Assembly (NCBI GenBank): GCA_017560205.1
Contig: JAFYOL010000096.1
Location: 1-32,690, forward strand
Direction: 5' to 3'
Source: Erysipelotrichaceae bacterium
GTDB lineage: Bacteria; Bacillota_I; Bacilli_A; Erysipelotrichales; Erysipelotrichaceae
DNA length: 32,690 nucleotides
Shown here: positions 3,647 through 29,761 of the stretch, one piece after another
How positions within the stretch are numbered: position 1 is the stretch's first letter
Layout of the letters: each line of letters begins with the position of its first letter
The notes under the pieces: generated by a model
What the model was told of the DNA's origin: nothing
Seen by the model: the letters and a program-made list of their open reading frames with translations, nothing else
Databases searched by the model: none
Position numbers and translations under genes: made by a program

Positions 3647-4570
3647 ATGGGATACAAAGAAATACTTTTCAGTAAAAACGGAATAGCAACATATACGCTC
3701 GCAAGAGAGTTCATTAAGTATCATGTAGGAGATAAGATTCCTACTGTGTCAGAACTCAGCGAGACTTTTGGTTTAGCACGAGGTACTGTGCAGAATGCAG
3801 TCAAGCTGCTTCAGCAAAGTGATGCGATTCGTATTGAGTCCAAGGGGCATGTTGGCTCTTATCTGATGAAGAAAAACATGACGATTCTTTTGGAGTTTGC
3901 AGGTATTTCTTCTATTGTGGGTGTAATGCCGCTGCCATATTCCAAGCGTTATGAAGGACTTGCATCAGGTCTTCTGGTGACAATGGAAAATCATTACAAC
4001 ATTCCTGCATCCATGGCTTTTATGCGTGGAGCTAAGAATCGCATCAGCATGCTGATTTCAAATCGTTATGATTTTGCGATTATTTCACGTTCAGCAGCAG
4101 AACAGATCATTAAAGAACATGACAACATTCTGATTGTGATGTCTTTTGGAAAAAATTCCTATTTGAGTGAACATGTGATTATCTTCAAGGATGATCAGAT
4201 GAAGGAAATTCAGGATGGCATGAGAGTTGGTATTGATTATGACTCTGTCGATCAGCGTGTGCTGACAGAAAAGGTCTGTGCGGGTAAAAACGTTGAATAT
4301 GTCCATGTGGATTATTCGCGTATTGTAGAGCGCGTCGTCAATGGGGAGATTGATGCGGCAATCTGGAACAAAGATGAAATTATAGAGAAGTTTATGAAAG
4401 TCAATTACACTGGGCTGAATGGATATGACAGTGTAACTGATGAAGCGGTTATGGTTGTCAGCAAAGAGGAATCAGAAATGGTAGAACTTCTTAAAAATAT
4501 TATTGATCCGCAGACTGTTGTGAACATTCAAAAGTTAGTGCTGGAAGGCAAAGTTACACCGAGTTATTAA
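3647..4570 (+). CDS. yhfZ: YhfZ-family transcriptional regulator (winged HTH plus ligand-binding domain)
   Basis: This 307-residue protein has an N-terminal GntR-like winged helix (about residues 8-75, with IPTVSELSETFGLARGTVQNAVKLLQQSDAIRIESKGHVGSYL). A C-terminal YhfZ domain (about 90-305) resembles a periplasmic-binding-protein fold and carries the family stretch MPLPYSKRYEGLASGLL, ending in PSY. The family regulator sits with yhfSTU-php genes in enterobacteria, and the same neighbours follow here. It is therefore the expected controller of the downstream operon, probably acting on the palindrome at 4626-4649. There is no ribosome site ahead of ATG 3647 and no other plausible start nearby. 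Together with the promoter position this suggests leaderless translation. The effector ligand is unknown. Confidence 0.88.
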   Translation: MGYKEILFSKNGIATYTLAREFIKYHVGDKIPTVSELSETFGLARGTVQNAVKLLQQSDAIRIESKGHVGSYLMKKNMTILLEFAGISSIVGVMPLPYSKRYEGLASGLLVTMENHYNIPASMAFMRGAKNRISMLISNRYDFAIISRSAAEQIIKEHDNILIVMSFGKNSYLSEHVIIFKDDQMKEIQDGMRVGIDYDSVDQRVLTEKVCAGKNVEYVHVDYSRIVERVVNGEIDAAIWNKDEIIEKFMKVNYTGLNGYDSVTDEAVMVVSKEESEMVELLKNIIDPQTVVNIQKLVLEGKVTPSY

Positions 4571-4662: not shown

Positions 4663-5043
4663 ATGAGTAAAGAAGTAAAGTGTTACAAATGTGGGAAAGT
4701 ACACGATTTGACATATAAGACTGTTAGGCAGACCATCAGTTGTTCACACTGCCATGCACATATGACATTTGATTTGAAATCGATTCGTAAACTGAAAATC
4801 ATGCGTTATCTGTTTGTGGTAATTATTGTTTCTGCACTGATGCTGGGATTTAAGCAGGTAGAGACATTGAACAGCTATGTGACACTCATTCTGACATGTA
4901 TGGGTGCGATGGTGTTCTCTTTGTGGTCTGATCGTCTTTGTCTGTATGCAACTTATCGATTCATGAATGTGAATTATGTTGAGTGTCATCCGGAAGACAA
5001 AAGAAAAAACACAAAGCCTAATCAGAATAAAAAAAGGAGATAG
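4663..5043 (+). CDS. small zinc-ribbon membrane protein of unknown function
   Basis: This is the first gene of the operon, 126 residues, with an AGGGG ribosome site. The N-terminal 35 residues hold two CxxC pairs (Cys7/Cys10 in CYKC and Cys27/Cys30 in CSHC), which should bind one zinc. Two hydrophobic segments follow (about 48-63 and 71-89), then a strongly basic C-terminal tail (PEDKRKNTKPNQNKKRR). The zinc ribbon and tail would both lie on the same side of the membrane, probably inside. I do not recognise a named family, and nothing equivalent is in the E. coli yhf operon as I know it. Its place at the head of the operon, four bases before the PRD gene, suggests a membrane-linked sensing or assembly role, which is inference. 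Confidence 0.75.
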   Translation: MSKEVKCYKCGKVHDLTYKTVRQTISCSHCHAHMTFDLKSIRKLKIMRYLFVVIIVSALMLGFKQVETLNSYVTLILTCMGAMVFSLWSDRLCLYATYRFMNVNYVECHPEDKRKNTKPNQNKKRR

Positions 5044-5046
5044 AAT

Positions 5047-5424
5047 ATGGATTTCACAGAAAGATTGGAAATGTTTTTGGAAGGTGAAATGATCACCGTT
5101 GATGATGTAAGAAATGTTAATAATATCTTGGATATGTTCAAGGAAAAGTATGGGGTTACTTTGACTGAAGAAAATGCATCTACATTTGTTTCTCATGTAT
5201 GTGCTGCATTTTATCGCTACTCTGCAGGAGAGGAAATTGATCCGCTTCCTGAAGAAGTAGTGAGTGAAATTGCTTCACAGCCAACTTATGAGTTGTCTGT
5301 TGAAGTGTTTGAAAATATTATGAAAGTAATCGAAAAGCCTTTTAGCGAAGTAGAAAGAGGCTACGTATTACTTCATATAAACAACTTAATTCAGCTTTTA
5401 AAAAGCGAAGGGGAATGGAATTAA
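5047..5424 (+). CDS. yhfY: stand-alone PRD-domain protein (YhfY-like)
   Basis: This 125-residue protein consists almost wholly of one PTS regulation domain. Conserved histidines are visible as His50 (FVSHVCAAFYRYSAGEEIDPLP) and His110 (GYVLLHINNLIQLL), the usual spacing for PRD phosphorylation sites. There is no DNA-binding or RNA-binding domain, as in E. coli YhfY, whose gene also lies in the yhf cluster. PRDs are normally phosphorylated by HPr or EIIB proteins of the phosphotransferase system, so a free PRD could relay PTS status to a partner such as the YhfZ regulator or the YhfT transporter. That partner is not shown by sequence. AAAGGAG precedes the ATG, and the gene is tightly spaced after the zinc-ribbon gene. 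Confidence 0.8.
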   Translation: MDFTERLEMFLEGEMITVDDVRNVNNILDMFKEKYGVTLTEENASTFVSHVCAAFYRYSAGEEIDPLPEEVVSEIASQPTYELSVEVFENIMKVIEKPFSEVERGYVLLHINNLIQLLKSEGEWN

Positions 5425-5455: not shown

Positions 5456-6766
5456 ATGGAAGGAATTATTACTAGTTTTGAATTTCCGCTGTGGGCTAGA
5501 ACAGTCGTTCTGGTAATGATCTGTGCTTGGGCATCTCTGTTGTCACACAAGTGCATTTCTAACTTTAACGATGGTGCTAGACCTGTATTCCCAGAATTGA
5601 TGGAAGGCCGCATGTCTCGTGCTGAATTCGCTGTCGTTGTTACTGGTATGGGATTCGGTTGGGTACTCGCTGGGTTCTCTCAGTGGCTCGGTACTGGGCT
5701 GATTGCATGTCACTTGACTCTGATCGCTACTGACTGCTTGGGTGCTTGGTCTCCTAATAAGTGGGTTGCTCTGGGTATTGGTGCTGGTTACGGTCTGCTT
5801 TGCGCATTCGGTACAGAAGCTATCAATGCTATGTTCACAGCTCTGCCTCATAACTTCTTGAACGACTTGACTAATATCTCTACACCTACACTGCCAATCT
5901 TCTGTATGTTCCCTGCAGTTGCGATTGCTGGTCAGTTTGGTGCTAAAGAAGGTATTACTACTGGTGTTATTGAAGCTATCGTTTACATTATCTGCACTAT
6001 TCTTGGAAGCGTTACAATCGGTTCTATCAAAGTCAGCCTGTATCCATATACATTCGCTATGCTGGCTGGTATGATCTGCCTGATCGTTTATGCTGTTAAG
6101 AAGGGTAATGAATCTGGTTCAGTTGAAACTGATGAAGAAGAAGAAAATATGTTCTCTAAGAACGCTGCTCGCATCAAGTCTAACTGGAAATATCTGTGCG
6201 TACAGGGTGCTCTGAACGCTCTGGGTATCAAGATTCTGGCTCAGGCTTATCAGCCATATGTAATCAGTGCTGCTGTATTGGCAAATGACATGATGCCATT
6301 CTACATTGCAATGGTTGGTGTTATCATCGCCTTCATCCCACTGATCGTTTCTACATCTCTGGCAACTGGTGTTTACCAGGCTGTAGGTTTGACTTCAGTT
6401 ATGCTGTTTGGTGCTCTGGCTCCAACTTGGTGGCTGGCTCCAATCTTCGGTTTCGTTGCAGAATTCGTAGAAATCCAGCTGGTTGGTATGCTTGGTAAGC
6501 TGCTGGCTAAGTTCCCTGAACTGTCTAAGAGTGGTGACCACATCCGTGCTGGTATGAGCGCAACTCTGGGTCTGGCTCTGACTATCGGTGCATTCCTGGC
6601 TGCTAACGCAACTTGGGGTGTTGTAGGTATCATGATCGTTGGTGGCTTCTACGCTCTGAACGAAGTAACTGGTAACAGACTGCCTAAGACAGCTGTTGGT
6701 CCTTTCGGTGCTGTAGTAGTTGGTATCGTATACAACATCGTACTGTTCCTGGGTCTTCTGGGTTAA
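5456..6766 (+). CDS. yhfT: YhfT-family membrane transporter
   Basis: This 436-residue polytopic protein has about 11-12 hydrophobic segments and a central charged loop (about 222-235, SVETDEEEENMFSK) separating two halves, matching the length and layout of E. coli YhfT. The YhfT family is a predicted solute transporter with no proven substrate. It is followed after 35 bases by YhfU, its constant partner. Codons are heavily biased to GCT, GGT, CTG, ATC, AAC and TTC, unlike the surrounding enzyme genes, which points to very high expression. The ribosome site AAAGGAGAAG lies seven bases upstream of the ATG. A strong hairpin after YhfU suggests that YhfT/YhfU are made in larger amounts than the enzymes beyond it. 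Confidence 0.88.
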   Translation: MEGIITSFEFPLWARTVVLVMICAWASLLSHKCISNFNDGARPVFPELMEGRMSRAEFAVVVTGMGFGWVLAGFSQWLGTGLIACHLTLIATDCLGAWSPNKWVALGIGAGYGLLCAFGTEAINAMFTALPHNFLNDLTNISTPTLPIFCMFPAVAIAGQFGAKEGITTGVIEAIVYIICTILGSVTIGSIKVSLYPYTFAMLAGMICLIVYAVKKGNESGSVETDEEEENMFSKNAARIKSNWKYLCVQGALNALGIKILAQAYQPYVISAAVLANDMMPFYIAMVGVIIAFIPLIVSTSLATGVYQAVGLTSVMLFGALAPTWWLAPIFGFVAEFVEIQLVGMLGKLLAKFPELSKSGDHIRAGMSATLGLALTIGAFLAANATWGVVGIMIVGGFYALNEVTGNRLPKTAVGPFGAVVVGIVYNIVLFLGLLG

Positions 6767-6801: not shown

Positions 6802-7182
6802 ATGTTAAAACTGGAAGTTTGTGGCTTGGGTGCTACAAAAACAACAGATATTATCAAAACGAAGTTTGCAGGTCAGGTTGAAGTTATCAACGATGCTGAC
6901 AGAATTGCAGTTCGTAAGGTAAAGAACGGCGAAGCAGATTATTATCTGGGAAGCTGTGAAACTGGTGGTGGAGCTTCTCTGGCTGCTGCTTTCGCGGTTT
7001 TAGGATTTAAGAACTGCCTGACTGTTTCTCGTCAGGGTATGATTCCTGATGAAAAGAAGATTCGTCACATGGTTTATGGCGGAACTCACAAAGCATTCGG
7101 TTATGTTCATACACATACTGAAAAAGTTGTTCCAGCATTAGTACAAGCATTGCTTGATAAAGCTGAAGGAAAGCCTGAATAA
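6802..7182 (+). CDS. yhfU: YhfU-family protein (DUF2620)
   Basis: This 126-residue soluble alpha/beta protein has a glycine-rich N-terminal loop (EVCGLGATKTTDI, residues 5-17) and the family stretch DYYLGSCETGGGASLAAAFAVLGF (about 47-70). In the known yhf cluster YhfU always accompanies YhfT, and both are uncharacterised. The first strand-loop with Cys7 resembles the phosphocysteine loop of PTS EIIB proteins, but I cannot show homology, so this remains a hypothesis. The gene follows yhfT closely with an AGGAGAG ribosome site and is followed 14 bases later by a strong terminator-like hairpin. Confidence 0.85.
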   Translation: MLKLEVCGLGATKTTDIIKTKFAGQVEVINDADRIAVRKVKNGEADYYLGSCETGGGASLAAAFAVLGFKNCLTVSRQGMIPDEKKIRHMVYGGTHKAFGYVHTHTEKVVPALVQALLDKAEGKPE

Positions 7183-7196: not shown

Positions 7197-7230
7197 GGGC
7201 ATCAAGTTGTACTTGGTGCCCTTGTTTTTT
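7197..7230 (+). terminator. strong hairpin with U-tract between YhfU and Php (probable partial terminator)
   Basis: The stem GGGCATCAAGT (7197-7207)/ACTTGGTGCCC (7211-7221) is 11 bp with one G-T wobble, has a 3-base loop and is followed by TTGTTTTTT. By shape this is a rho-independent terminator. The genes beyond it clearly belong to the same set and I see no promoter between, so it probably lets part of the transcription through. Confidence 0.75.
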
Positions 7231-7254
7231 AAAAATGGTTGCGGGAGAAAATAT

Positions 7255-8166
7255 ATGATTAGAACGGTATTGGGCGATATTGAAAAGACTGAATTTGGTA
7301 AGACAATGTGTCATGAGCACTTCATTATTGACTTGGACAAAGTGCGTCATGATGGAATTTCAATGATTGAAACAGTGGAAGAAGTTATTCCAGAAATTGA
7401 AATGATGATGGATCTTGGTGTTGAAGCTGCAATTGAAGTGACAACGATTGATCTTGAAAGAGATGTATTGAAGTTGAAAGAAATCTGCGAAAAGACTGGA
7501 TTGAAAATGGTTTGTTCAACAGGCTATTATCTGTCACAGTTCCATCCTGAATGGCTGAATGATGCAACTGTTGAGGAAATTGCAGAAGTATATATAAAAG
7601 AATTGACTGAAGGTATTGATAATACTGGAATTAAAGCTGGTATTATTGCGGAAATCGCATCAGGACCTAAGTCATTTGTAGGAAATGAAAAGAAGATTCT
7701 GGAAGCTGCAGGTCTTGCAGCTGCTAAGACTGGATGTGCTGTCAGCACTCATACTGGACGTTATACAGCAGTTGAAACAATTGAAACATTGCTGTCATAC
7801 GGTATGAATCCAGATAAGATTATTATTGGTCATCAGGATTTGATCAATGACAGTGAATATCATCTGTCTTTGTTGAAGTATGGTGTCAACATTGCGTTTG
7901 ATACTTGCGGTAAGGTCAATTATATGGCGGATGAAATTCGTGCTGAAAATATGCTGAAGATTATTCGTGCTGGCTATGGTGATCACATTATGGTCAGTGA
8001 TGATGTTTCAAGAAGAACATATTTTGTTTCACATGGCGGCGTAGGTTATATTGCTGCTTACAAGACTGTACTTCCTTTATTGAAGGAATATGGTGCAACG
8101 GATGAAGATATCCGTAAGATTACAACAGATAATCCAGCTCGAATCCTTGATAACGACTGGAAATAA
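7255..8166 (+). CDS. php: phosphotriesterase-homology protein Php, first copy
   Basis: This 303-residue amidohydrolase-superfamily barrel keeps the dinuclear metal ligands of the Php/PTE family: His20 and His22 (CHEHF), the bridging acid Glu133 (IIAEIASG) in place of the carboxylated lysine of true phosphotriesterase, His166 (STHTGRY), His193 (IGHQD) and Asp250 (VSDD). E. coli Php, from the equivalent operon, has the same Glu bridge and no known physiological substrate. Relatives hydrolyse lactones or phosphorylated sugar lactones. ATG 7255 is preferred because GGGAG precedes it. An open frame extends 16 codons upstream but would translate through the terminator hairpin. It lies in one run with YhfX, the amidase, YhfS and YhfW. 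Confidence 0.9.
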   Translation: MIRTVLGDIEKTEFGKTMCHEHFIIDLDKVRHDGISMIETVEEVIPEIEMMMDLGVEAAIEVTTIDLERDVLKLKEICEKTGLKMVCSTGYYLSQFHPEWLNDATVEEIAEVYIKELTEGIDNTGIKAGIIAEIASGPKSFVGNEKKILEAAGLAAAKTGCAVSTHTGRYTAVETIETLLSYGMNPDKIIIGHQDLINDSEYHLSLLKYGVNIAFDTCGKVNYMADEIRAENMLKIIRAGYGDHIMVSDDVSRRTYFVSHGGVGYIAAYKTVLPLLKEYGATDEDIRKITTDNPARILDNDWK

Positions 8167-8184: not shown

Positions 8185-9351
8185 ATGTTTCTTGAAAAGG
8201 TACAGGAAAACAATAGACCTCTGGTGGAGTATGCATTTGAACTGCAGCAGAAAGGTTTGATTTTACCGGATACATATGTTTTAGACTATGATGCAATCAT
8301 GGAAAATGGAAAAAGCATGAAGGATGCAGCTGAACCTTTAGGGATTAAACTGTATTTCATGCTGAAACAGATTGGACGTAATCCTGAGATTGCCAAAGGT
8401 CTGATGGAAGTTGGGTTTGATGGCGTTGTTGCAGTGGACTTTAAAGAAACACTGGTGATGATGAAAAACGACGTTAAACTGGGAAATATCGGTCATCTGG
8501 TTCAGGTTCCAAAGGCAGCACTGAAAGAAGTTGTCAAAGCTCAGCCTGAAGTCATGACAGTGTATTCCTATGAAAAGATTCTGGAAATCAATGAAATCGC
8601 AAAAGAACTGAACATGGTACAGCCTTTGTTGATTCGTGTCAATGATACAGATTCAGCACTGTATTCGGGTCAGGTTGGTGGATTCTTGATTTCAGAACTT
8701 GAAGAATTGCTTAATAAAATTGAAACATTAAGCAATGTAAAAGTAGGTGGATTGACAGTGTTCCCTGCACTTTTGTTTGATGGAAAGAAAAATGAAATCG
8801 TTCCAACAGACAACTATAAAGTTCTGCAGCGTGCCATGGCCATCACAGAAAAGCTGGGTTATAAAGATCTTCTGATCAACATGCCATCTGCAACATGCAC
8901 TGCATCAATTCCACTGATTAAGGAACTGGGTGGAAACAATGGTGAACCAGGACATGGTCTGACAGGGACAACACCTCTTCATAAGGTTACTGATCAGAAA
9001 GAACGTGTTGGTTATGTTTATGTAAGTGAAGTATCTCATAACTATCTGGATAAGTCATATTGCTACGGTGGTGGACATTATCGTCGTGGTCATATGGAGT
9101 ATGCACTGGTTGGTACTTCATTGGAAAATGCAGTGACAGCACGTGTTGAAGCACCTACGATGGAATCCATTGACTATCATTATGAACTTGAAGGTAATTT
9201 CAATGTTGGTGATGCAGTTGTCATCTGTGCACGTACACAGGTATTTACGACAAGAAGTCATGTTGCCATCGTGAAAGGATTAAGCACAGGAAAACCTGAA
9301 CTGACAGGTATTTATGATAGTTTTGGGGAACCTGTGAATTTGAAGTGGTAA
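8185..9351 (+). CDS. yhfX: YhfX-family PLP enzyme (alanine-racemase-like fold III)
   Basis: This 388-residue protein has a racemase-type N-terminal barrel: LPDTYVLDYDAIMENGKSM (28-46), then Lys61 in YFMLKQIGRNP as the probable Schiff-base lysine, and a C-terminal beta domain. The family motif GGGHYRRGHMEYALVG lies at about 294-309. YhfX proteins are placed with alanine racemase and D-threonine-aldolase-like enzymes but have no proven reaction. The PLP lysine suggests racemisation, elimination or aldol cleavage of an amino-acid-like substrate. The gene starts 18 bases after php1, and its stop is six bases before the amidase gene, so it is firmly part of the operon. Confidence 0.87.
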   Translation: MFLEKVQENNRPLVEYAFELQQKGLILPDTYVLDYDAIMENGKSMKDAAEPLGIKLYFMLKQIGRNPEIAKGLMEVGFDGVVAVDFKETLVMMKNDVKLGNIGHLVQVPKAALKEVVKAQPEVMTVYSYEKILEINEIAKELNMVQPLLIRVNDTDSALYSGQVGGFLISELEELLNKIETLSNVKVGGLTVFPALLFDGKKNEIVPTDNYKVLQRAMAITEKLGYKDLLINMPSATCTASIPLIKELGGNNGEPGHGLTGTTPLHKVTDQKERVGYVYVSEVSHNYLDKSYCYGGGHYRRGHMEYALVGTSLENAVTARVEAPTMESIDYHYELEGNFNVGDAVVICARTQVFTTRSHVAIVKGLSTGKPELTGIYDSFGEPVNLKW

Positions 9352-9357: not shown

Positions 9358-10326
9358 ATGAAGGGTAATTATGAAAAACAGCATCGTCTTGCGCTGCATA
9401 ATCCATATGGATCTGTAGTGAAAGTACTTGATGCAAAAGAAGATGATCTTCTGGTGGGAATCAAGAACGTAGCATCGATTCCAAATACGTTGATGCACAA
9501 ACTTGAACCTCATGGATTTTCACTTCATACAATTGATAAAAAATCACAGCTTGCAGGTCGAGCTGTGGATACAGAACTGATTAATCCAATTACTGGACAT
9601 TACATGTCAGGATCATCTTCTGGTACAGCATTGAATGTGTTTGCAGGTATCAATGATCTGGGAATTGGAAATGATGGCGGAGGCAGCGTACTGGCTCCTG
9701 CTATGTGTGTAAATATTTACGGTTTTATTTCAAGACTGATTGAAAAAGACCGACAGCAGAAAGCGAAAGCCAATACAGATGGTATTGTTGCAGGGAATTC
9801 ACTGGGATTTCTGGCACGTGATCGCGAAATTCTGTTTAAAGCCATTGAAGTGGCTACTGGAGTAGTGAAAGCTGAAGATGCTGGTGTTGTCTGGACAGAC
9901 AAGCAGTATCCTGGCATTGATTCAGAAGTGGTTGAAGTGATGGATGCCAATGCACCAAGAGGTCCATTGACAGAATATCTGAAAGAAACACTGAAGAAGT
10001 GCGATGTTCTGGTTGTGACAGAAGGTCCTGTGGATCTGCATGGATTTGGTGATTCATTGTTTGGTCATTTTGATGAACGAACAAAAGCAATCCAGATGGA
10101 GGCAAACAAAGGTTATGTGCGTGTATGCAACATCGCCAATGCAACTGCACTTGCGATTCCACAGACTGGATTGGGAATGGCGACTTTGTTGATGTGTGAA
10201 AGCACAGAAGAAAAAGTTGCGAAACTGCTCAAACTGAGCGAAAAAATTGAACATGTACATGATGAACTCATTGAACGTTATTTCCTGGATCTGGACAATT
10301 ACTTCAATGAAGGTTATCAGATTTAA
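9358..10326 (+). CDS. minimal amidase-signature enzyme associated with the yhf-like operon
   Basis: This 322-residue protein shows the Ser-cisSer-Lys apparatus of the amidase signature family. Lys36 sits in LVGIKNVASIPNT. Ser86 in MSGSSSGTALNVFAGI is the cis-Ser candidate, and Ser110 in GIGNDGGGSVLAPA is the nucleophile candidate. The 24-residue Ser-Ser spacing matches fatty-acid amide hydrolase and GatA. The Lys-Ser interval is about 50 residues instead of about 75, and total length is well below the usual 450-500, so two stretches are missing. No stop or frameshift interrupts it, and the C-terminal half keeps VLVVTEGPVDLHGFG and NATALAIPQTGLGMATLL, so it reads as an intact compact variant. 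The start has only a poor ribosome site and relies on coupling to YhfX. I know of no counterpart in the E. coli operon. Confidence 0.8.
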   Translation: MKGNYEKQHRLALHNPYGSVVKVLDAKEDDLLVGIKNVASIPNTLMHKLEPHGFSLHTIDKKSQLAGRAVDTELINPITGHYMSGSSSGTALNVFAGINDLGIGNDGGGSVLAPAMCVNIYGFISRLIEKDRQQKAKANTDGIVAGNSLGFLARDREILFKAIEVATGVVKAEDAGVVWTDKQYPGIDSEVVEVMDANAPRGPLTEYLKETLKKCDVLVVTEGPVDLHGFGDSLFGHFDERTKAIQMEANKGYVRVCNIANATALAIPQTGLGMATLLMCESTEEKVAKLLKLSEKIEHVHDELIERYFLDLDNYFNEGYQI

Positions 10327-10338: not shown

Positions 10339-11442
10339 ATGGAAGCATATCCTTTGGAAAGTATTAGTGTTAGACAGGCGATGCAGAAACAATTCAGACT
10401 GGTTGAATGTGCAATGCATCACTTTGAAGGCAGTGAATTTCTGACTCGTGGTGATTTAGGGGTTCATCAGCCTGAAAATCAGCCAATCACAACAATGAAG
10501 GCTGAAAAGGCAATTGCAGAATTCTTTGGTGCTGAAGACTGCATTTTAGTGCGTGGCGCTGGAACTGGTGCAATTCGTTATGGTCTGACTTCAATGATTA
10601 AGGCAGGTCAGAAAATGCTGGTGCACGATGCTGCAATCTACTCAACTACAGTAACCACTGTTGAAATGCTGGGATTGGACATCGTAAAGGCAGATTTCAA
10701 TGATTTGAATGAAATTGAACGTGTGATGAATGAAAATCCGGATATCGTATGCGCTCTGGTTCAGTACACACGTCAGAAACTGGATGATCGTTATGACATG
10801 GGTGAAGTTCTGCAGAAAATCAAATCCTGCAAAGATATTCCAATTCTGTGTGATGACAACTATGCTGTATTGAAAGTGGACAAGATCAGCTGCGAATTGG
10901 GTGCGGATCTGTCATGTTTCTCAACATTCAAGCTTCAGGGGCCTGAAGGCATTGGTGCTGTTGTAGGTAAACATGAATACATCGCAAAAATCAGAAAAAT
11001 GCATTATTCAGGCGGCTGCCAGACTCAGGGTTGGGAAGCTCTTGAAGTGCTCAGAGGTCTGGTTTATGCTCCAGTGATGCTGGCAATTGCAGCGGAAACT
11101 GGTGAAGAAGTGCTTAAGCGCATTAACGAAGGTGAACTAGCAGGCGTTAAGAAAGCATATCTGGCTAATGCACAGTCAAAAGTTCTGCTGGTAGAATTTG
11201 AAGAACCAATCGCAAAACAGGTTCTGGTTGAAGCTGAAAAGATGGGTGCTCTGCCTAATCCGGTAGGTGCAGAAAGCAAATATGAATTTGCCCCTCTGTT
11301 CTATCGTGTTTCAGGTACATTCCTGAAGACAGACCCAACATTGGCATCACGCATGATTCGTATCAATCCAAATCGTGCAGGTGCTGATACTGTTATGAAC
11401 ATTCTGAAGAAAAGCGTTGCGGCTGTTTCTGAGGTGAAATAA
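10339..11442 (+). CDS. yhfS: YhfS-family PLP-dependent enzyme (fold I), first copy
   Basis: This 367-residue fold-I PLP protein carries a cofactor phosphate-cup motif RGAGTGAIR (72-80), the acidic pair in ILCDDNYAVLK (Asp172/Asp173) that contacts the pyridine nitrogen, and Lys198 in CFSTFKLQGPEGIGAVVG as the Schiff-base lysine. It resembles E. coli YhfS in length and in its position next to YhfW. The family is related to cysteine-desulfurase/SelA-like lyases and aminotransferases, but its reaction is unknown. GGGGG precedes the ATG. The stop is followed immediately by the YhfW start, so the two are translationally coupled. Confidence 0.87.
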   Translation: MEAYPLESISVRQAMQKQFRLVECAMHHFEGSEFLTRGDLGVHQPENQPITTMKAEKAIAEFFGAEDCILVRGAGTGAIRYGLTSMIKAGQKMLVHDAAIYSTTVTTVEMLGLDIVKADFNDLNEIERVMNENPDIVCALVQYTRQKLDDRYDMGEVLQKIKSCKDIPILCDDNYAVLKVDKISCELGADLSCFSTFKLQGPEGIGAVVGKHEYIAKIRKMHYSGGCQTQGWEALEVLRGLVYAPVMLAIAAETGEEVLKRINEGELAGVKKAYLANAQSKVLLVEFEEPIAKQVLVEAEKMGALPNPVGAESKYEFAPLFYRVSGTFLKTDPTLASRMIRINPNRAGADTVMNILKKSVAAVSEVK

Positions 11443-12657
11443 ATGGATAAGCGTTTTGTTGTCATTGTGCTGGATGGCTTTGGTATGCAGGCAATGGCCG
11501 ATGCTGCTACAGCTCGTCCTGGTGATGAAGTTTCTTCAACACTTGGAAGTATTCTTCATGATTATCCAGATCTGAAGCTTCCAAATCTTGAAAAATTAGG
11601 TTTGATGAATGCTTATGGTTATGAATCTGCACAGATGAAATTCTCTGAAACTGCAGTTTATGGAAAAAGTGAATTGATGCATTTTGGTGCTGATACATTC
11701 ATGGGACATCAGGAAATTATGGGTTCATTCCCTAAACGTCCACTGGTTCAGCCATTTCAGATGAAGGTTGATGAAATCAAGGCTCATCTGGAAGAAACAG
11801 GTCATAAAGTAGAAGTTCGTTCCAACGGGAATCTGCGTTATCTGCTGGTGGATGACTACTGCACAGTTGGCGACAACATTGATGCAGACTTGGGTATGGC
11901 TTATAACTGTACTGCACCATTGGATTACATGAGCTTTGAAAAAGAACTTGAAATTGGTCGCAGAGTACGTGAAATCGCTACTGTCAACCGTGTTATTCCA
12001 TTTGGTGGTACAGGAAATACCATTGAAGATGTACTGGCTGCAGAAGAAACTCGTCAGGATACATTTATTGGTATTCATGCAGTAAAATCAAAGTCTTATG
12101 AACAGGGTTATGAATGCCGTCATTTAGGATATGGTGTTGATGAAAAAGTTCAGGCACCTACGATCCTGACAAATCATGGCGTACCAGTTTCTCTGTTTGG
12201 CAAGGTAGCGGATATTGTGGCCAATGATGGTGGAAAACTGGTTTCCTGTGTTGATACTGCAGAAGTACTGGATTTGACCATTGAAGAAATCAAGAGAATG
12301 CCTCATGGTTTCATCTGCACAAATGTACAGGAAACAGATCTGGCAGGTCATTCTCAGGATTCAGGCTGGTATAAGAAGCTTCTTGAAATTTCAGATGAAA
12401 AGATCGGAAAGATTCTTGAACTGCTGAATGATGAAGATATTCTGGTTGTTATGGCTGACCATGGCAACGATCCAAACATTGGACACAACCGTCATACTCG
12501 TGAAAATGTACCTCTTCTGATTCATAAGAAGGGTCTTGAAGGTGTGAACATTGGACTAAGAAAAACATTATCTGATGTTGGGGCAAGTGTCTGTGACTAT
12601 TTTGGTGTACCAACAACTCAGAATGGAACATCGTTTATCGGTGATTTGAAGAAATAA
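11443..12657 (+). CDS. yhfW: YhfW, phosphopentomutase-like phosphotransferase
   Basis: This 404-residue alkaline-phosphatase-superfamily protein closely follows phosphopentomutase (DeoB). Asp11 lies in IVLDGFG. Thr85 in FGADTFMGHQEIMG matches the phosphorylated threonine. Asp299 and His303 lie in ETDLAGHSQD, Asp339/His340 in VMADHGNDP, and His351 in HNRHTRENVPLL. All metal ligands and the cap-domain region (about 100-215) are present, so an intramolecular phosphate transfer on a sugar-like phosphate is likely. The E. coli yhf operon encodes the same protein, with unknown substrate. A normal deoB role is less likely because no nucleoside phosphorylase is nearby and neighbours are of the yhf type. 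A hairpin follows its stop. Confidence 0.88.
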   Translation: MDKRFVVIVLDGFGMQAMADAATARPGDEVSSTLGSILHDYPDLKLPNLEKLGLMNAYGYESAQMKFSETAVYGKSELMHFGADTFMGHQEIMGSFPKRPLVQPFQMKVDEIKAHLEETGHKVEVRSNGNLRYLLVDDYCTVGDNIDADLGMAYNCTAPLDYMSFEKELEIGRRVREIATVNRVIPFGGTGNTIEDVLAAEETRQDTFIGIHAVKSKSYEQGYECRHLGYGVDEKVQAPTILTNHGVPVSLFGKVADIVANDGGKLVSCVDTAEVLDLTIEEIKRMPHGFICTNVQETDLAGHSQDSGWYKKLLEISDEKIGKILELLNDEDILVVMADHGNDPNIGHNRHTRENVPLLIHKKGLEGVNIGLRKTLSDVGASVCDYFGVPTTQNGTSFIGDLKK

Positions 12658-12662: not shown

Positions 12663-12692
12663 ACAGACACAGTTTTGTGTCTGTTTTCTTTT
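12663..12692 (+). terminator. hairpin with U-tract between YhfW and the second Php (probable partial terminator)
   Basis: Perfect 9-bp stem ACAGACACA (12663-12671)/TGTGTCTGT (12676-12684) with loop GTTT, an A-run before it and TTTCTTTT after it. The ribosome site TAGGAGG of the next gene begins right at its 3' edge, so the structure ends one module and abuts the next. Confidence 0.75.
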
Positions 12693-12704
12693 AGGAGGAA
12701 GAAC

Positions 12705-13667
12705 ATGAAAGATATGGTGAATTCAGCAACAGGTCCTGTTGCATTGGATGATTTGGGGATTATTCTGCCGCATGAACATCTTTTATTCGCAAGAGATGAA
12801 CGTCTGCCATTTTTAAAACAGGAACTAATTGATTATAAGAATGCAGGAGGGTCAGTGATTATTGATATGTCCACTCCTGAAATCTGCAAGTCTTTTGAAC
12901 GTGATGAACGCATTGATACGCTTTATGATCTGGCACAGGAAACAGGGGTTACTTTGATGTATGGTACAGGTTTTTATAAAGAGCCTCGTTTACCTGAATT
13001 CATCAAAGAGAAAACCATTGATGAACTTGCAGAAATGATGATTCATGAAATTGAAGTAGGACGCGGGAAACGTAAAATCAAGGCATCCTTGATTGCGGAA
13101 GTTGGCTCCAGCAACTACACCGTTTATGAAACTGAAGAGAAAGTGCTTCGTGCAGCAGGCAGAGCCTCTGCCAAGACAGGAGTTGCGATCACAACGCATA
13201 CGGGCCGTGGAACCATGTACAAGGAACAGCTTCGTTTCTTTGAAGAAGAAGGGGCTGATTTAACACGTGTAGCGATTGGTCATCAGGATGTTTATCCACG
13301 TCTTGAAGAAAGAATGGAAGCATATGAATACATTTTTTCAAAGGGGGCAACTGTTCAGTTTGACTGCATTGGAAAAAGAGGATTCTTTGAGATTCATCTG
13401 GATATCGATTATGGACAGAAGTTCCCATATGACGAAGATCGTGCAAAGATGATTAAGAAGTTTGTGGATATGGGTTATATCAGACAGATTATGATTTCAT
13501 GTGATATTGATGGTCCTACTTTGTGCAAACATTGGGGAGGATGGGGTTATTCTCATATGTTGACAAGTTTTGTGCCAATGTTGAAAAAAGAAGGATTAAC
13601 GGATGAACAGATTCATCAGATCATGGTTGAAAATCCTAAAAACATGTTAAGAAGAAAGGTGGTCTAA
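12705..13667 (+). CDS. phosphotriesterase-homology protein, second and divergent copy
   Basis: This 320-residue barrel of the same family as the first copy keeps the metal site: His23 and His25 (LPHEHLLFA), Glu132 (LIAEVGSS), His165 (TTHTGRG), His193 (IGHQD) and Asp267 (ISCDIDG). Outside these motifs it differs widely from the first copy and has insertions at about 224-245, in the loop that shapes the substrate pocket. The two are unlikely to be redundant. ATG 12705 is chosen because it follows a perfect TAGGAGG. Ten further upstream codons are open but would cover the hairpin. Its stop is directly followed by the second YhfS-like gene, so the two form a pair behind their own hairpin boundary. 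Confidence 0.88.
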   Translation: MKDMVNSATGPVALDDLGIILPHEHLLFARDERLPFLKQELIDYKNAGGSVIIDMSTPEICKSFERDERIDTLYDLAQETGVTLMYGTGFYKEPRLPEFIKEKTIDELAEMMIHEIEVGRGKRKIKASLIAEVGSSNYTVYETEEKVLRAAGRASAKTGVAITTHTGRGTMYKEQLRFFEEEGADLTRVAIGHQDVYPRLEERMEAYEYIFSKGATVQFDCIGKRGFFEIHLDIDYGQKFPYDEDRAKMIKKFVDMGYIRQIMISCDIDGPTLCKHWGGWGYSHMLTSFVPMLKKEGLTDEQIHQIMVENPKNMLRRKVV

Positions 13668-13668
13668 C

Positions 13669-15006
13669 ATGAACACTGTAAAAGAATATTTAGTTCATCA
13701 GCTTGGAATGAAGGTTTGTGCTGATGAGTGCTGTGCACAGATTGCAGATTTGATGGTAAATCCTGAATGTTTTGAGGAATATGAAGGACCTGCATTGAAA
13801 CAGGAAGCAAAAGAAGTATGCAGTTTATTGAATCGTGCTGAATTGTGTACTAAAGTTCAGAAAATACTTGTGGAACTTCTGAATCAGGAAGTACAGGCTA
13901 TTCCTTTTGAAAGTACTCCATTAAAGTCAATTTCTCTGGAACAGTCCATTAAAAATCAGTATCGTTTTGTGGATATTCTTCATCGTCATTTTGATGGCTA
14001 TGAAGCATTGGAAGCAGGAGATTATGGCTGTGTGCTGGGATTGGGAAGACCTAGAAGAACTGCAAAGGCTGAAAAAGTGATTGCGGAATACTTTCATGCA
14101 GAAGATTGCATCCTATTAAGAGGAGCAGGTACAGGGGCGATTCGTGCTATTTTGTTTGCTGCAGTTGAAAGAGGTACAAAAGTACTGGTGCATGATGCAT
14201 CCATGTATGTCACAACTCAGATTTCTATGGAAGGTCTTGGCGCAGAAATCATCAAAGCAGATTTCAATGATTTGACTAAGGTTGAAGAAGCTTTGAAGAA
14301 TGGTGTGGATATGGTCTACATCCAAAGAACTAGACAGGCAATGACAGATCATTACGATACAATTGAATTGATTGAGTTTGTCCGTGATATCACACCAGAT
14401 GTAAAGATTGTGGTGGATGAAAACTACGCCGTGTTCAAAGTTGAACAGTTAGGTTGCGAGGCAGGCGCTGATTTGTCGACATTCTCTTGTTTTAAGGTGA
14501 TGGGAATACCAGGAGTAGGCTGTGTTGTCGGTAAAAAGAAGTATATTGATAAACTGAGAGAGCACAATTACTCAGGTGGTGGACAGGTTCAGGGGCCTGA
14601 AGCCAGTGAAATTCTTCGATCATTAGTGAATGTGCATGCATTGCTGGGAACACAGAATCTTGCGGTTGAAGAAATTGCACAGCGATTGAATGCCAATGAG
14701 ATCCATCATGTCAGAAAAGCTGTGAAGGCAAACATTGAAGAGAGAATTCTGTTGGTGCAGCTGGATCTGCCAATCGCAAAACAGGTGATGGAACATGCGG
14801 CAAAGATGGGAGCACTGCCATATCCAGTTGGATCAGAAAGCCGCTTTGAAGTTCATACGATGTTTTATCGTGTATCACGTACAATGATGGAAAAAGATCC
14901 TGTGTTTGCCAATTATGTCATTCGTATCAATCCAATGAGAGCTGGAGCGGATACAGTGCTGAGAATTCTCGATGAGTCCATTAAAACAGTGCTGAATGAA
15001 AGATAA
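13669..15006 (+). CDS. second YhfS-like PLP enzyme with an extra N-terminal domain
   Basis: This is a 445-residue protein. From about residue 83 onward it parallels the first YhfS (TPLKSISLEQSIKNQYRFVD against YPLESISVRQAMQKQFRLVE). It retains RGAGTGAIR (151-159), VVDENYAVFK with Asp250, and Lys276 in FSCFKVMGIPGVGCVVG. The first 80 residues, rich in helix and cysteine (Cys17, 21, 22, 34, 51, 60), have no equivalent in the first copy. I do not recognise this extension; it could be a partner- or ligand-binding helical bundle. The gene follows the second Php by one base and ends the main run. Active-site surroundings differ from the first copy (VMGIPG against LQGPEG), suggesting a related but different substrate. 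Confidence 0.85.
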   Translation: MNTVKEYLVHQLGMKVCADECCAQIADLMVNPECFEEYEGPALKQEAKEVCSLLNRAELCTKVQKILVELLNQEVQAIPFESTPLKSISLEQSIKNQYRFVDILHRHFDGYEALEAGDYGCVLGLGRPRRTAKAEKVIAEYFHAEDCILLRGAGTGAIRAILFAAVERGTKVLVHDASMYVTTQISMEGLGAEIIKADFNDLTKVEEALKNGVDMVYIQRTRQAMTDHYDTIELIEFVRDITPDVKIVVDENYAVFKVEQLGCEAGADLSTFSCFKVMGIPGVGCVVGKKKYIDKLREHNYSGGGQVQGPEASEILRSLVNVHALLGTQNLAVEEIAQRLNANEIHHVRKAVKANIEERILLVQLDLPIAKQVMEHAAKMGALPYPVGSESRFEVHTMFYRVSRTMMEKDPVFANYVIRINPMRAGADTVLRILDESIKTVLNER

Positions 15007-15179: not shown

Positions 15180-16451
15180 ATGAAAAAGTTATTCAAACTT
15201 GCTCTGGCCCTGATGCTGGTGCTTGGCATGGTAGCATGCGGAAGCTCTGACACAGGTACAGACACACCTGCTGGCGATGAAAAAGTTGAATTCGCTATCT
15301 GGCACACATTCACTAAGGATCAGGAAGCTCTGCTGAATGACCTGGCTAATGAATTTATGGCTGCTAACGAAAACGTTACAATCAAAGTTCATGGCGGTTA
15401 TGATGCAAACGACTTCAATGGTACAGTAACTAATGCTGTTATCAATGGTGTTGGACCTCAGTTGATTTTCCAATATACCTCATTTGCTAAGAGCTTTGAA
15501 GGTTATGATTTGTTGCTTCCACTGGAAGAATATTGGGATTTCAAACTTGAAGACATCTGTCCAGCTGGATATGTAGAAGAAGCTAGTGCTTTTGAAGATG
15601 GAAAAGTTTACACTGCTCCAATTCAGACAACAGGACCAGTTCTGTTCTACAACAAGACTATCTATGATCAGTTAGGTCTGAGCGCTCCAAGAACTTGGGA
15701 AGATCTGAAAGTTGCATCTAAGAAGATTCATGATGAACTGGGAATCGTTGGTTTCGGTTGCGATGGTAAGCTGACTGACCTGGCTCAGATTTTCATCTAT
15801 CAGTCACATGATGGTGCATATGTAGACCTGGAAAACAACAAGGTTCTGTGGAATGACGAAAAGACAGTTGAATGGATCGAATACTGGGCAGAAGGTGTAC
15901 GTGAAGGTTACTTCCAGCTGAAAGCTCAGGCTGCTGATGGATACACTTCTGGTGATATCAACAACCAGCTCGTAGGTGCTTATATCGGTTCTTCTGCAGG
16001 TCTGCCTTATCTGAAACCAGCAGAAAATGGTTGGGAAGTTGCAGTAACAACTGTTCCAGTAATCGACGAAGAATCTGTTGAAGTTGTTAACTGGAACCGT
16101 TCAGCTATCGCTTTCAAGACTGACAGCGAAGCAACAAACCAGGCAATTGCTGATTTCGTAGCATACTTTATCGAACAGGATGGACGTTGGGCAAAGGTCC
16201 TGAATGCTTATTCTCCATACTATGCAGTACAGGAAACAGCTGAATATCAGGAATGGGTATCTAAGGACATCGCTCTGATCGCTCTGGGTCAGCAGCTTCC
16301 AAACGGATTGGTTCCTCCAACATTCACTGGTGGAGACATCATGCGTGAAGAACTGCACACTGTATTCTCAGGTGTTCTGGCTGAAGGATATGATGCTGCA
16401 ACTGCATTGAACACAGCAGCAGTAAATTCTGAAGCTGCAATGAATGAATAA
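15180..16451 (+). CDS. extracellular solute-binding lipoprotein of a Ugp-type ABC importer
   Basis: This 423-residue protein has a lipoprotein signal (basic MKKLFKLALALMLVLGMVAC, cleavage before Cys20) and a family-1 solute-binding fold. FAIWHTFTKDQEALLNDLANEF at the mature N-terminus and YTAPIQTTGPVLFYNKTIYDQLG near residue 150 are typical of UgpB and sugar-binding relatives. UgpB-like proteins bind glycerol-3-phosphate or glycerophosphodiesters, and the neighbouring phosphodiesterase makes a phosphodiester ligand attractive, but a plain sugar is possible. Optimal codons and a hairpin directly after the gene fit the higher demand for the binding protein over its membrane partners. Confidence 0.87.
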   Translation: MKKLFKLALALMLVLGMVACGSSDTGTDTPAGDEKVEFAIWHTFTKDQEALLNDLANEFMAANENVTIKVHGGYDANDFNGTVTNAVINGVGPQLIFQYTSFAKSFEGYDLLLPLEEYWDFKLEDICPAGYVEEASAFEDGKVYTAPIQTTGPVLFYNKTIYDQLGLSAPRTWEDLKVASKKIHDELGIVGFGCDGKLTDLAQIFIYQSHDGAYVDLENNKVLWNDEKTVEWIEYWAEGVREGYFQLKAQAADGYTSGDINNQLVGAYIGSSAGLPYLKPAENGWEVAVTTVPVIDEESVEVVNWNRSAIAFKTDSEATNQAIADFVAYFIEQDGRWAKVLNAYSPYYAVQETAEYQEWVSKDIALIALGQQLPNGLVPPTFTGGDIMREELHTVFSGVLAEGYDAATALNTAAVNSEAAMNE

Positions 16452-16463
16452 ATAATTCATTTT

Positions 16464-16497
16464 AAAGAGCCGGGAAATTAACTCTCGGCTCTTTTCT
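16464..16497 (+). terminator. hairpin after the solute-binding protein gene
   Basis: Stem AAAGAGCCG (16464-16472)/CGGCTCTTT (16486-16494), loop of 13 bases, then TTTTC. It is likely a partial terminator that lowers expression of the downstream transporter genes relative to the binding protein. I see no convincing promoter between it and the next gene. Confidence 0.7.
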
Positions 16498-16595
16498 CAA
16501 AATTGATGATTTTGTGTTCAATCATTCATAAAAAATGGTGAATACAAAATACTATTTCTGTGGGAGATAGGAATAGAAAATGAAAGGAAATAATT

Positions 16596-17888
16596 ATGAG
16601 TAAATTGCTTGTTTTTTGTTTGGATGCCTTATGTACATGTGATATCGAGTACATGAAAACTTTGCCTAATTTTAAGAAGATCATCGAAGGTGGAAGCTAT
16701 ATTAAGCATGTTGAGCCTGTGTACCCATCTTTGACATATCCATGTCATTGTTCAATTTTAACTGGTAGAACAGTCAAAGGGCATGGTATTCCTCATAATG
16801 AAATGGTTGAGATTGAAAATGAAAAAGCTCCATGGTATTCTTTGAAATCTCAGCTGAAATGCAGAACATTGCTTGATGTTGCTCATGATTATGGCAAGAA
16901 AACATGTTCACTTAGCTGGCCTGTATCAGGTGGGGCTGACATCGACTTTAATATGCCGATGATTGTTCCGATTGATTATCAGGGAGACAATCCTTATCAG
17001 TTCTTAGTGAACAATGCAACTCAGGAACTTCTGGATCGCTATTATTGGAAATACAAACATCATTTGATTGGTGAAAACCGCAGCCTTGATTTGTATACAA
17101 TGAGCCTTGCAATTGATATTCTGGAAGATTATGGTCAGCCAGATATTATGCTTGTTAAGATGTGCGATCTGGATACAGTTCATCATGTTACAGGACTTAA
17201 CAATGAACATGTAAAGAAGCAGTTAAGAATTCATGATACAGAACTGGGCAGACTAATGGAAGCCGTTGAACGTTTTGGTGATCTGGAAGATACAAATATC
17301 GTTATCCTGGGTGACCATGGTCAGCAGGAAGTATCACGTGTTCTGAACTTTAACTTGCTGTTAAAAGAAAATGGATTCATTCAGACGAACGAAGAAAATC
17401 AGCTGGTTGACTGGACAGCTTACTGTCATTCAGCTGCACTGTCTGCATGGATTGAATTAAAAGATAAAAATGATGATGCTTTAAGACAGAGAGTTTATGA
17501 ATTCCTGCTTGAAGTAAAAAATAACCCAATTTATAACATCGGTTATGTTTTCACAAGAGAAGAAGCAGAAGAAAAGTTTGGTCTTGTAAATGAACACATT
17601 GACTTTGTTATTGAAGGAAAAGAACCAATGTCATTTGGAAGTACATTATCAGGAAGAGACTTGTTTAAAGAATACTTAAGACCAGGATGGCACAGCAATG
17701 CTGCCTCTCATGGACATTTGCCAAGTTCTGATGAAACAACAACATTCATTGCCTGGGGTAAAAATGTAAAGCAGGGAGTTGTGATTGAACGCGGAAGCAT
17801 GATGAGTGAAGCTTCAACTATGGCTGCAATGCTTGGCATGGAAATGAACGATACTGAGGGTGCACCTTGGTTAGAAATTTTAAAATAA
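16596..17888 (+). CDS. cytosolic NPP-type phosphodiesterase (alkaline phosphatase superfamily)
   Basis: This 430-residue protein has the two-zinc site of nucleotide pyrophosphatase/phosphodiesterases. Asp10 (FCLDAL), nucleophile Thr47 (YPSLTYPCHCSILTG), Asp240/His241 (LGDHGQQEV), Asp193/His197 (DLDTVHHVTG) and a C-terminal His in SHGHLPSSD (372 or 374) are all visible. There is no signal peptide, so it should act inside the cell on imported substrate. A threonine nucleophile occurs in NPP phosphodiesterases and some phosphonate hydrolases. Placement between the binding protein and the ATPase gene implies that the ABC importer delivers its substrate, for example a phosphodiester. The ribosome site AAAGGA precedes the ATG. 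Confidence 0.86.
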   Translation: MSKLLVFCLDALCTCDIEYMKTLPNFKKIIEGGSYIKHVEPVYPSLTYPCHCSILTGRTVKGHGIPHNEMVEIENEKAPWYSLKSQLKCRTLLDVAHDYGKKTCSLSWPVSGGADIDFNMPMIVPIDYQGDNPYQFLVNNATQELLDRYYWKYKHHLIGENRSLDLYTMSLAIDILEDYGQPDIMLVKMCDLDTVHHVTGLNNEHVKKQLRIHDTELGRLMEAVERFGDLEDTNIVILGDHGQQEVSRVLNFNLLLKENGFIQTNEENQLVDWTAYCHSAALSAWIELKDKNDDALRQRVYEFLLEVKNNPIYNIGYVFTREEAEEKFGLVNEHIDFVIEGKEPMSFGSTLSGRDLFKEYLRPGWHSNAASHGHLPSSDETTTFIAWGKNVKQGVVIERGSMMSEASTMAAMLGMEMNDTEGAPWLEILK

Positions 17889-17903
17889 AAGGGGAGATTT
17901 CTT

Positions 17904-18962
17904 ATGAAAATTACAATTGAGCATCTGACTAAAGATTTTGGCTCTATGATTGCTGTCAATGACTTCAATGCAGTAATTGAGTCAGGCGAATTAATCGCTC
18001 TTTTAGGTCCTTCTGGATGTGGTAAGAGTACCATGCTGAACATGATTTCTGGTATTCTTCCATCAACTACTGGTAAGATTTACTTCGATGAAGATGATGT
18101 TACTGAAGTAACACCAGAAAAGCGCGGAGTTGGTCTGGTATTCCAGAACTATGCACTTTATCCACACATGACAGTATTGGAAAATATTGCATTCCCGCTT
18201 GAAATCAAGAAAGTTAAGAAAGCTGAACGTGAAGCAAAAGCAAAAGAAATGGCAAAACTGGTTCACGTTGATATGCTGCTAGATAGAAAGCCTAAACAGT
18301 TGTCTGGTGGTCAGCAGCAGCGTGTTGCAATTGCGCGTGCCTTGATCAAGAATCCACGTGTATTGCTGCTGGATGAACCTCTGTCAAACCTGGATGCTCG
18401 TCTGAGAATTGAAATGCGTGAAGAAATTCGCCGTATTCAGCAGGAAACTCAGGTTACAACAATTTTCGTAACTCATGACCAGGAAGAAGCAATGTCAATT
18501 TCTGACCACATCGTTCTGATGAAGGATGGTTTTTTGCAGCAGGTTGCTCGTCCTCAGGAACTGTATGATGAACCAGCAAACTGTTTCGTAGCAGACTTCC
18601 TTGGTAACCCACCTATCAATAAGACTTTTGGCGTTGTTTCAAACGGTAAGATCGTTCTGGATGGTGGATGCGAAGTTGAACTGGAAGCTGCAAAGAATTT
18701 ACCAGAAGGTAAGAAAGTCACTCTTTCAATGCGTGCTGAAGCTATCGTTGTTGATGAAGATCTGGTAAATGCTGAAGGTACAGTTGTAGAAACTTACGTT
18801 ATGGGTAAAGAAGTTCTGGCTTATGTAGAACTTGGTGATTACAAGGTTAGAGCTTATATCCCTGCAGAAAAGAGTTTCGGAAAAGGACAGAAAGTAACAG
18901 TTGGACTTAAGAAGCGTGGCGTCTTCGTATTTGATGCAGAAACAGGGGAAAGACTTGCATGA
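17904..18962 (+). CDS. ABC importer ATPase, UgpC/MsmK type
   Basis: This 352-residue nucleotide-binding subunit has a Walker A at GPSGCGKST (35-43), Q-loop Gln81, signature LSGGQQQR (133-140), Walker B VLLLDEP (153-159) and an H-loop in IFVTHDQEEAMS. A C-terminal OB-type regulatory domain (about 240-352) is the hallmark of the carbohydrate and glycerol-phosphate subfamily. It energises the two permeases directly downstream. ATPases of this class are sometimes shared among several importers, but its location makes it the cognate one. Its stop overlaps the start of the next gene as ATGA. Confidence 0.93.
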   Translation: MKITIEHLTKDFGSMIAVNDFNAVIESGELIALLGPSGCGKSTMLNMISGILPSTTGKIYFDEDDVTEVTPEKRGVGLVFQNYALYPHMTVLENIAFPLEIKKVKKAEREAKAKEMAKLVHVDMLLDRKPKQLSGGQQQRVAIARALIKNPRVLLLDEPLSNLDARLRIEMREEIRRIQQETQVTTIFVTHDQEEAMSISDHIVLMKDGFLQQVARPQELYDEPANCFVADFLGNPPINKTFGVVSNGKIVLDGGCEVELEAAKNLPEGKKVTLSMRAEAIVVDEDLVNAEGTVVETYVMGKEVLAYVELGDYKVRAYIPAEKSFGKGQKVTVGLKKRGVFVFDAETGERLA

Positions 18963-19870
18963 GTGCTCGTTCAGTAGGTAAGAAGAATAAGGTCTCTTTG
19001 AAGTCAAAGGTTGAACCTTATCTCTATCTGGCACCATTTGCCATTGGTGTCTTACTATTTACTCTTTATCCAATTGTTAATGTTGTATTGATGTCTTTTA
19101 AAGAAAACTACAATTTCATTAACCAGTCATATTCTGGCTGGGGTCTTGGAAACTATCTGTATGTTTTGAAAGATGCTTATTTCATTCAGGCATACAAAAA
19201 TACATTTATGTATGTATTTGTTGTTATTCCAATTTCAACATGCTTATCAGTTGTTATTGCGACTTTGTTAAATCAGAAGATTAAGTTCAGTGGAATGTTC
19301 CAGACAGCATACTTTTTACCAATGGTTACTTCTACCATTGCGATTGGTTTTGCATGGAGATTCATGTTTAACCATAAAACAGGTATTATCAACTATCTGT
19401 TGTCATTCTTTGGGGTAGAAGCAATCAACTGGCTTCAGATTCCTAAGTACAACTTCCCAGCACTTTGCATTTATGGTGTTTGGGCAATTCTGCCATTTAC
19501 GATTATTCTGCTTTTGTCAGGGCTTCAGAATATTGACCCAATGTACTACACAGCTGCAAAGGTAGATGGAGCTGGACCAATCAAGAGTTTCTTCAGAATT
19601 ACTCTTCCATTGCTTGCTCCAACAATCTTCCTGGTGCTTTGTGTAAACACAATCAGTACATTCAAGGTTTATAATGAATTATTCCCGTTGTTCCAAGGGC
19701 CTGGTATTGCTAGTAATTTGTTTACGGTTGTTTATTATATTTACTATCAGTTCCGAATTAAGACGCCTAGTAAATATGGATATGCAGCTGCAGCAGCAGT
19801 TATTTTGTTCTTGACAATCTTTGTGTTTACAATGATTCAACGTTTTGTTGAAAAGTTGACAAAAGATTAA
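18959..19870 (+). CDS. ABC importer permease, UgpA type
   Basis: This 303-residue inner-membrane protein has six hydrophobic segments. The cytoplasmic EAA loop that docks on the ATPase is seen as YYTAAKVDGAGPIKSFFRITLPLLAPT (about 199-225). It belongs to the MalF/UgpA branch of carbohydrate-uptake permeases and is co-translated with the ATPase through a 4-base overlap. It forms the translocation pore with the following permease. Confidence 0.92.
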   Translation: MSARSVGKKNKVSLKSKVEPYLYLAPFAIGVLLFTLYPIVNVVLMSFKENYNFINQSYSGWGLGNYLYVLKDAYFIQAYKNTFMYVFVVIPISTCLSVVIATLLNQKIKFSGMFQTAYFLPMVTSTIAIGFAWRFMFNHKTGIINYLLSFFGVEAINWLQIPKYNFPALCIYGVWAILPFTIILLLSGLQNIDPMYYTAAKVDGAGPIKSFFRITLPLLAPTIFLVLCVNTISTFKVYNELFPLFQGPGIASNLFTVVYYIYYQFRIKTPSKYGYAAAAAVILFLTIFVFTMIQRFVEKLTKD

Positions 19871-19880
19871 GGAGGTCATT

Positions 19881-29757: not shown

Positions 29758-29761
29758 GTGA

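Follow-up and report, generated by a model that had tools for sequence, protein, structure and literature searches.

What an amidase-signature (AS) enzyme of only 322 residues does within a yhf operon is the question raised by the locus analysed here, a stretch of 32,690 nucleotides from an Erysipelotrichaceae bacterium (contig JAFYOL010000096.1; hereafter the window). For each of the eight genes of the Escherichia coli K-12 operon (yhfS-yhfT-yhfU-php-yhfW-yhfX-yhfY-yhfZ) a counterpart was located in the window (Table 1), which adds to them the AS gene and one further copy each of php and yhfS. The E. coli K-12 record annotates its yhf operon genes as putative or uncharacterised only, and no paper on a compact amidase or on yhf operon function was found in the literature searched, which lay mostly outside subscription journals.

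Table 1. The yhf operon of the window, with the compact amidase gene and the codons of its three key residues.
Feature	Coordinates	Strand	Remarks
YhfZ-type regulator (HTH_41 + YhfZ_C)	3647..4570	+	
YhfY-type PRD-domain protein	5047..5424	+	counterpart in E. coli
YhfT membrane protein (PF10797), presumed uptake protein	5456..6766	+	family match; transport role presumed
YhfU (DUF2620)	6802..7182	+	
Php1, phosphotriesterase-family hydrolase	7207..8166	+	
YhfX, alanine-racemase-like PLP enzyme (PF21279)	8185..9351	+	
Compact AS enzyme	9358..10326	+	322 aa; Lys36, cis-Ser86, Ser110
Lys36 codon	9463..9465	+	catalytic Lys by alignment
Ser86 codon	9613..9615	+	cis-Ser by alignment
Ser110 codon	9685..9687	+	nucleophile by alignment
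YhfS, aminotransferase/lyase-like PLP enzyme (PF22475)	10339..11442	+	
YhfW, phosphopentomutase-type	11443..12657	+	

Several other genes of the window were recorded alongside this set. A 126-aa protein with weak zinc-ribbon-like matches is encoded at 4663-5043, between yhfZ and the PRD gene, a position that it also occupies in most close operons. Directly past yhfW, at 12675-15006, lie another php-type gene and another YhfS-type gene, longer than the first (445 aa); the pair recurs in loci L003, L004, L007, L008 and L010, its php part also in L009, and suggests a branch or a paralogous step of the pathway. The plus strand at 15180-20717 encodes a carbohydrate/UgpB-like substrate-binding protein, a PF01663 phosphodiesterase-type enzyme, a UgpC-like ATPase and two permeases, which perhaps import a phosphorylated or glycerol-phosphate-like compound, and at 28831-30685 a PfkB kinase nearest to pseudouridine kinase is followed by an Indigoidine_A family protein in what looks like a pseudouridine catabolic pair.

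The amidase reading frame opens with ATG, runs for 322 codons free of internal stops, starts 6 bases past the yhfX stop and is followed 12 bases downstream by yhfS, so that the intact frame, the length and the placement between these two genes were all as originally predicted. The Pfam Amidase model PF01425 matched residues 77-123 only (47 residues; 35.1 bits against a cut-off of 27; E = 1.1e-8), which by the curated cut-off places the protein in the AS family, and alignments likewise located equivalents of the family's Ser, cis-Ser and Lys positions. A phmmer search of solved chains paired the same residues 77-123 with malonamidase E2, where S131 and S155 correspond to Ser86 and Ser110; the residues of that enzyme (K62, S131, S155; Lys-cisSer interval 69) were taken from mutant names in PDB titles. 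When profiles were aligned globally with those of GatA-type proteins from the window's family, K36, S86 and S110 were paired with GatA K63, S138 and S162, and the alignment reached the C-terminal core (residues 214-306) while omitting a large middle part of GatA, the middle being weakly aligned. The pairing of Lys36 comes from this global alignment and from fragment alignment only: the local profile alignment stops short of Lys36, and full-length MAFFT alignments misplaced it. The three residues of the expected triad are thus present, with the predicted Ser86-Ser110 spacing of 24.

When the family profile was compared with solved chains, GatA, FAAH, hydrazidase and malonamidase E2 were matched and GatA scored best, a result that could be taken to favour a glutaminase- or GatA-like role in which the protein supplies ammonia to a partner enzyme of the operon. 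This is improbable: no GatB- or GatC-like partner occurs among the operon genes, and the PLP enzymes YhfX and YhfS are not known to require ammonia from glutamine. Membership of any named AS subfamily was itself ruled out, no NCBIfam model (GatA, allophanate hydrolase, AtzE and others) coming near its own cut-off; the best score was 29.8 bits against 463.

The amidase shares with AS enzymes of PF01425 such as malonamidase E2, GatA, FAAH and UMG-SP2 the Lys/cis-Ser/Ser residues, the serine spacing of 24 and glycine-rich motifs, and differs from them in three usual but non-defining traits: a Lys-cisSer interval near 69-78, a length above 400 residues, and an Arg two residues past the nucleophile. 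The interval is 50 in the window amidase and 48-50 in 18 of 18 aligned members, as against 75-78 in 22 fragments of AS enzymes encoded on viral contigs and 75 in both UMG-SP2 (Lys91/Ser166/Ser190; PMC11708778) and ClbL (Lys80/Ser155/Ser179; PMC10478638). The original estimate of an interval some 25 residues shorter than usual therefore holds for most of the AS enzymes compared (50 versus 75-78), and has to be reduced to 19 in the case of malonamidase E2. Members of the subfamily are 317-337 aa long, whereas the AS chains among the structural matches listed have at least 403 residues, and the position two past the nucleophile is Leu in 18 of 18 members versus Arg in 20 of the 22 fragments. The serine spacing was 24 in all 40 sequences, both sets taken together. 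Of 38 AS stretches initially gathered from viral contigs, seven near copies and nine lacking a match to the Lys pattern (some of them cut by contig ends) were discarded; agreement at the Lys in 22 of 22 fragments is thus a product of selection, the fragments having been picked for a recognisable Lys motif, while the interval was not selected. Since the short interval and the short length are common to the whole subfamily, they are read as a variant rather than as failed AS membership.

Across the 18 rows, which extend down to 35% identity, K36, S86, S87, S88, G107-G109, S110, V111 and L112 are invariant, and comparison with an 89% identical relative (L004) gave dN = 0.088 and dS = 1.42 (dN/dS ~0.06), placing the gene under purifying selection. 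A truncated pseudogene, fragment or assembly artefact, as might be suspected of a protein that is short for its family and matched by Pfam over just 47 residues, is ruled out by the length and spacing common to 18 members, the open frames, this dN/dS ratio and a full predicted fold; the amidase belongs instead to a coherent compact subfamily. The same pattern of conservation bears on the suggestion that the protein is a non-catalytic relative which binds a ligand or acts as a scaffold for other enzymes. Its chain is shorter than any AS chain among the structure matches listed (the smallest having 403 residues) and a conserved Arg has been replaced, but a non-catalytic protein would have no need of an invariant triad and an invariant GGG before Ser110, and we consider such a role hardly probable. 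The non-hydrolytic relative that had been offered as an option is likewise disfavoured by the invariance of triad, cis-Ser motif and GGGS segment alike.

Homologues were detected in 20 of the 145 genomes of the window's family. A 21st genome (G141) was dropped, its match covering 41 residues of a 451-aa frame that is presumably an ordinary AS enzyme, and a 53-residue match at 42% in G000:C67 belongs to an ordinary GatA-type AS enzyme. In the GTDB collection, 11 of 12 homologue loci are titled Erysipelotrichaceae or its genera, and one Oscillospiraceae; no relatives of the compact amidase were found on viral contigs, and neither Pfam nor NCBIfam, as searched here, has a separate entry for the subfamily. 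The metagenome-assembled genome (MAG) labelled Oscillospiraceae (G497, locus L011) carries a yhf operon with the amidase gene in pieces on two contigs, and no other among the 245 genomes in its order has the short amidase; a binning error or a single transfer is possible. MAG RGIG4604 has identical amidase proteins on two contigs (L003 and L004), reflecting either assembly redundancy or recent duplication.

Structure prediction was undertaken with two alignments. The first AlphaFold2 model, built from 11 close sequences and no other AS sequence, serves only as an AS-free control: its pLDDT was 62 and it was unsure around the active site, and Foldseek returned no match at E <=0.001, although the top rows were AS enzymes (probability 0.99-1.00) and AS enzymes made up 50 of 50 structural matches among those listed (Z 10.0-12.6). 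The second model, with the 22 AS N-terminal fragments added, reached a pLDDT of 85.8 and a pTM of 0.88; all 50 Foldseek rows and all 50 VIA rows among those listed were AS enzymes, the top Foldseek match being malonamidase E2 (E = 1.2e-13) and the best VIA-align match 6-aminohexanoate cyclic dimer hydrolase (Z 26.4, rmsd 3.5, 296 residues aligned). The AS agreement of the N-terminal half is partly built in, because the added rows cover that half only; the C-terminal half rests on the compact family's own sequences, C-terminal AS fragments having aligned at the wrong place and been left out. In this model Lys36 ends the strand 31-36, Ser86 stands just before helix 88-95, and Ser110 lies between strand 101-106 and helix 112-117; AS enzymes likewise have the Lys at a strand end and the two serines in loops. 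The predicted structure has the AS fold over nearly its whole length, and looks like a natural minimal version of that fold, clearly smaller than the solved AS chains among the matches listed.

The amidase thus keeps the residues required for AS chemistry, in which the Lys deprotonates the cis-Ser, the nucleophilic Ser is thereby activated, backbone amides stabilise the oxyanion, and an acyl-enzyme is formed from which water releases the acid (PMC11708778; PMC10478638). By homology, Lys36 would take the proton of cis-Ser86, which in turn would activate Ser110 to attack a carbonyl that the DGGGS segment holds by its backbone; with formation of an acyl-enzyme the amine would depart, and water would free the acid. 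What the protein lacks is most of the usual loop after the Lys (~21 residues), visible in the multiple alignment as a gap of ~21 columns directly after the Lys strand, together with the middle segment that helps to cover the active site in other AS enzymes. With both missing, the pocket is probably more open, and such openness would be expected to promote hydrolysis or to make room for a bulky substrate.

These losses also bear on whether the acyl group is instead passed to an amine or other acceptor, the chemistry up to the acyl-enzyme being kept and an amide made or exchanged. The relevant precedent is ClbL of the colibactin pathway, a pathway-dedicated AS enzyme with the same triad that forms an amide bond and differs from the compact amidase in having 487 residues and a flexible lid and in belonging to an unrelated operon (PMC10478638); the lost segments and the Arg-to-Leu change could conceivably have altered the reaction. 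However, conjugation by ClbL is said to be favoured by a hydrophobic pocket and a lid of ~50 residues (PMC10478638). The cover missing from the compact amidase would, by analogy, lie roughly at the position of the ClbL lid, and the apparent absence of a lid-equivalent segment should favour water; the yhf operon, moreover, looks catabolic. Acyl transfer is accordingly considered unlikely, and hydrolysis is the reaction expected of the compact amidase.

The original prediction had further proposed a new subfamily dedicated to the yhf pathway, to be recognised by the same short form next to yhf genes elsewhere. Genes of the yhf set adjoin the short amidase in 29 of 29 loci, in three gene orders, two same-genome pairs (L003/L004 and L052/L053) being included in the count; the short form likewise stands beside yhf genes in two genomes from another family of the class (G168 and G193), and within a complete yhf operon on a plasmid of Cetobacterium somerae (Fusobacteriota; NZ_CP092520.1). 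The Cetobacterium protein (MKD34_RS09785, annotated just as 'amidase family protein') belongs to the same family (36% identity, with 86% of the query aligned), and its operon has a gene order unlike that of the window. In a draw of 392 genomes across the phylum, the amidase was present in 11 and YhfT in 13, and all 11 amidase genomes were among the 13 (hypergeometric probability 1e-19, relatedness ignored). Within the 145 genomes of the family, YhfT was found in 24, of which 18 have the amidase and 6 lack it, and YhfX in 27 (19 with and 8 without); in the two amidase-bearing genomes without YhfT (G103 and G115) the contig ends at the amidase gene or close to it. As the short form was encountered solely in the company of yhf genes, its standing as a dedicated subfamily is well supported, and it is present in the yhf clusters of many gut bacteria.

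Dedication to the pathway does not extend to being required by it. The complete operon of E. coli K-12 has no amidase, and complete operons lacking it were found in four relatives: G025, where the contig ends within yhfW, G034, G077, where YhfT is in two pieces, and G124. Amidase-free complete operons therefore make the amidase an optional yhf component. In a further amidase-free genome (G127), yhfS was not found either. A locus from the window's own genus (L217, G069) has yhfZ, the PRD gene, yhfT, yhfU, php and then two adjacent YhfS-type genes, with no amidase before the contig end, which falls within the operon.

The distribution of the amidase was then compared with trees of its neighbours, drawn from 24 amidase-bearing and 6 amidase-free loci; L217, whose contig ends within the operon, L214-L216, which have yhfX without the core operon, and several short amidase-bearing contigs were omitted. 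On the YhfT tree the presence of the amidase needs 2 changes, a value as low as which occurred in 0 of 500 shuffles; on the Php tree it needs 3 (0 and 2 of 500 shuffles as low), and on the tree of YhfX, YhfS and YhfW combined it needs 4, against a shuffled mean of 5.6 (23 and 21 of 500 as low). Amidase presence thus agrees better with the YhfT tree than with that of YhfX/S/W. The amidase-free locus L212 and the amidase-bearing L047 are 55%, 64% and 67% identical in YhfX, YhfS and YhfW and only 37% in YhfT, whereas L212 and L213, both amidase-free, share 58% identity in YhfT. It would thus seem that the amidase and the uptake-type protein are passed on together. Few lineages contribute to this signal, the six amidase-free loci coming from a small number of them, and some branches are long and flagged as unsure, so that placing the amidase at the front end of the pathway rests on few events.

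The reading that we favour, at a probability of roughly 0.6, is that the compact AS enzyme is a front-end hydrolase, a constant part of one of the two versions in which the yhf operon occurs, and acts on an imported compound. An imported compound is preferred to a core intermediate because the core enzymes YhfX, YhfS and YhfW occur without the amidase, the presence of which follows YhfT; the substrate would then be met upstream of the steps of Php, YhfX, YhfS and YhfW. The original suggestion that a pathway intermediate carries an amide was a fair inference as to the bond, and fares less well as regards a core intermediate, given the complete operons without the amidase and the association with YhfT. 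That the amidase tends to come and go with the uptake gene hints that the nutrient enters with the bond that the amidase cuts, and in some lineages this nutrient probably carries an amide or a similar acyl bond.

An amide would be the expected scissile bond, and the alternative, in which a hydrolase of the same mechanism cleaves an ester, carbamate or lactone and no amide is implied, is judged doubtful. In its favour, the AS enzyme UMG-SP2 cleaves carbamates (PMC11708778), and the neighbouring Php resembles the phospho-furanose lactonase model, its score of 138 bits being far below the cut-off of 630.

The hydrolase of an imported compound can be taken one step further, and here the proposal becomes speculative and on balance rather unlikely: the amidase and its own type of YhfT would constitute a swappable front end, importing and unmasking an amide-linked compound for the YhfX/YhfS/YhfW core, which in E. 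coli would be supplied by another route, and the enzyme, having mostly lost the AS cover, would be completed by another protein of the operon as a subunit of a yhf complex.

Fold and chemistry are in this case already known, and it is the compact subfamily that is new, within an uncharacterised pathway. An optional, pathway-bound hydrolase with a well-understood mechanism offers a chemical handle on that pathway, in that its substrate should hold a scissile acyl bond, and setting operons that carry the amidase against those that lack it should help to identify the substrate of the yhf genes.
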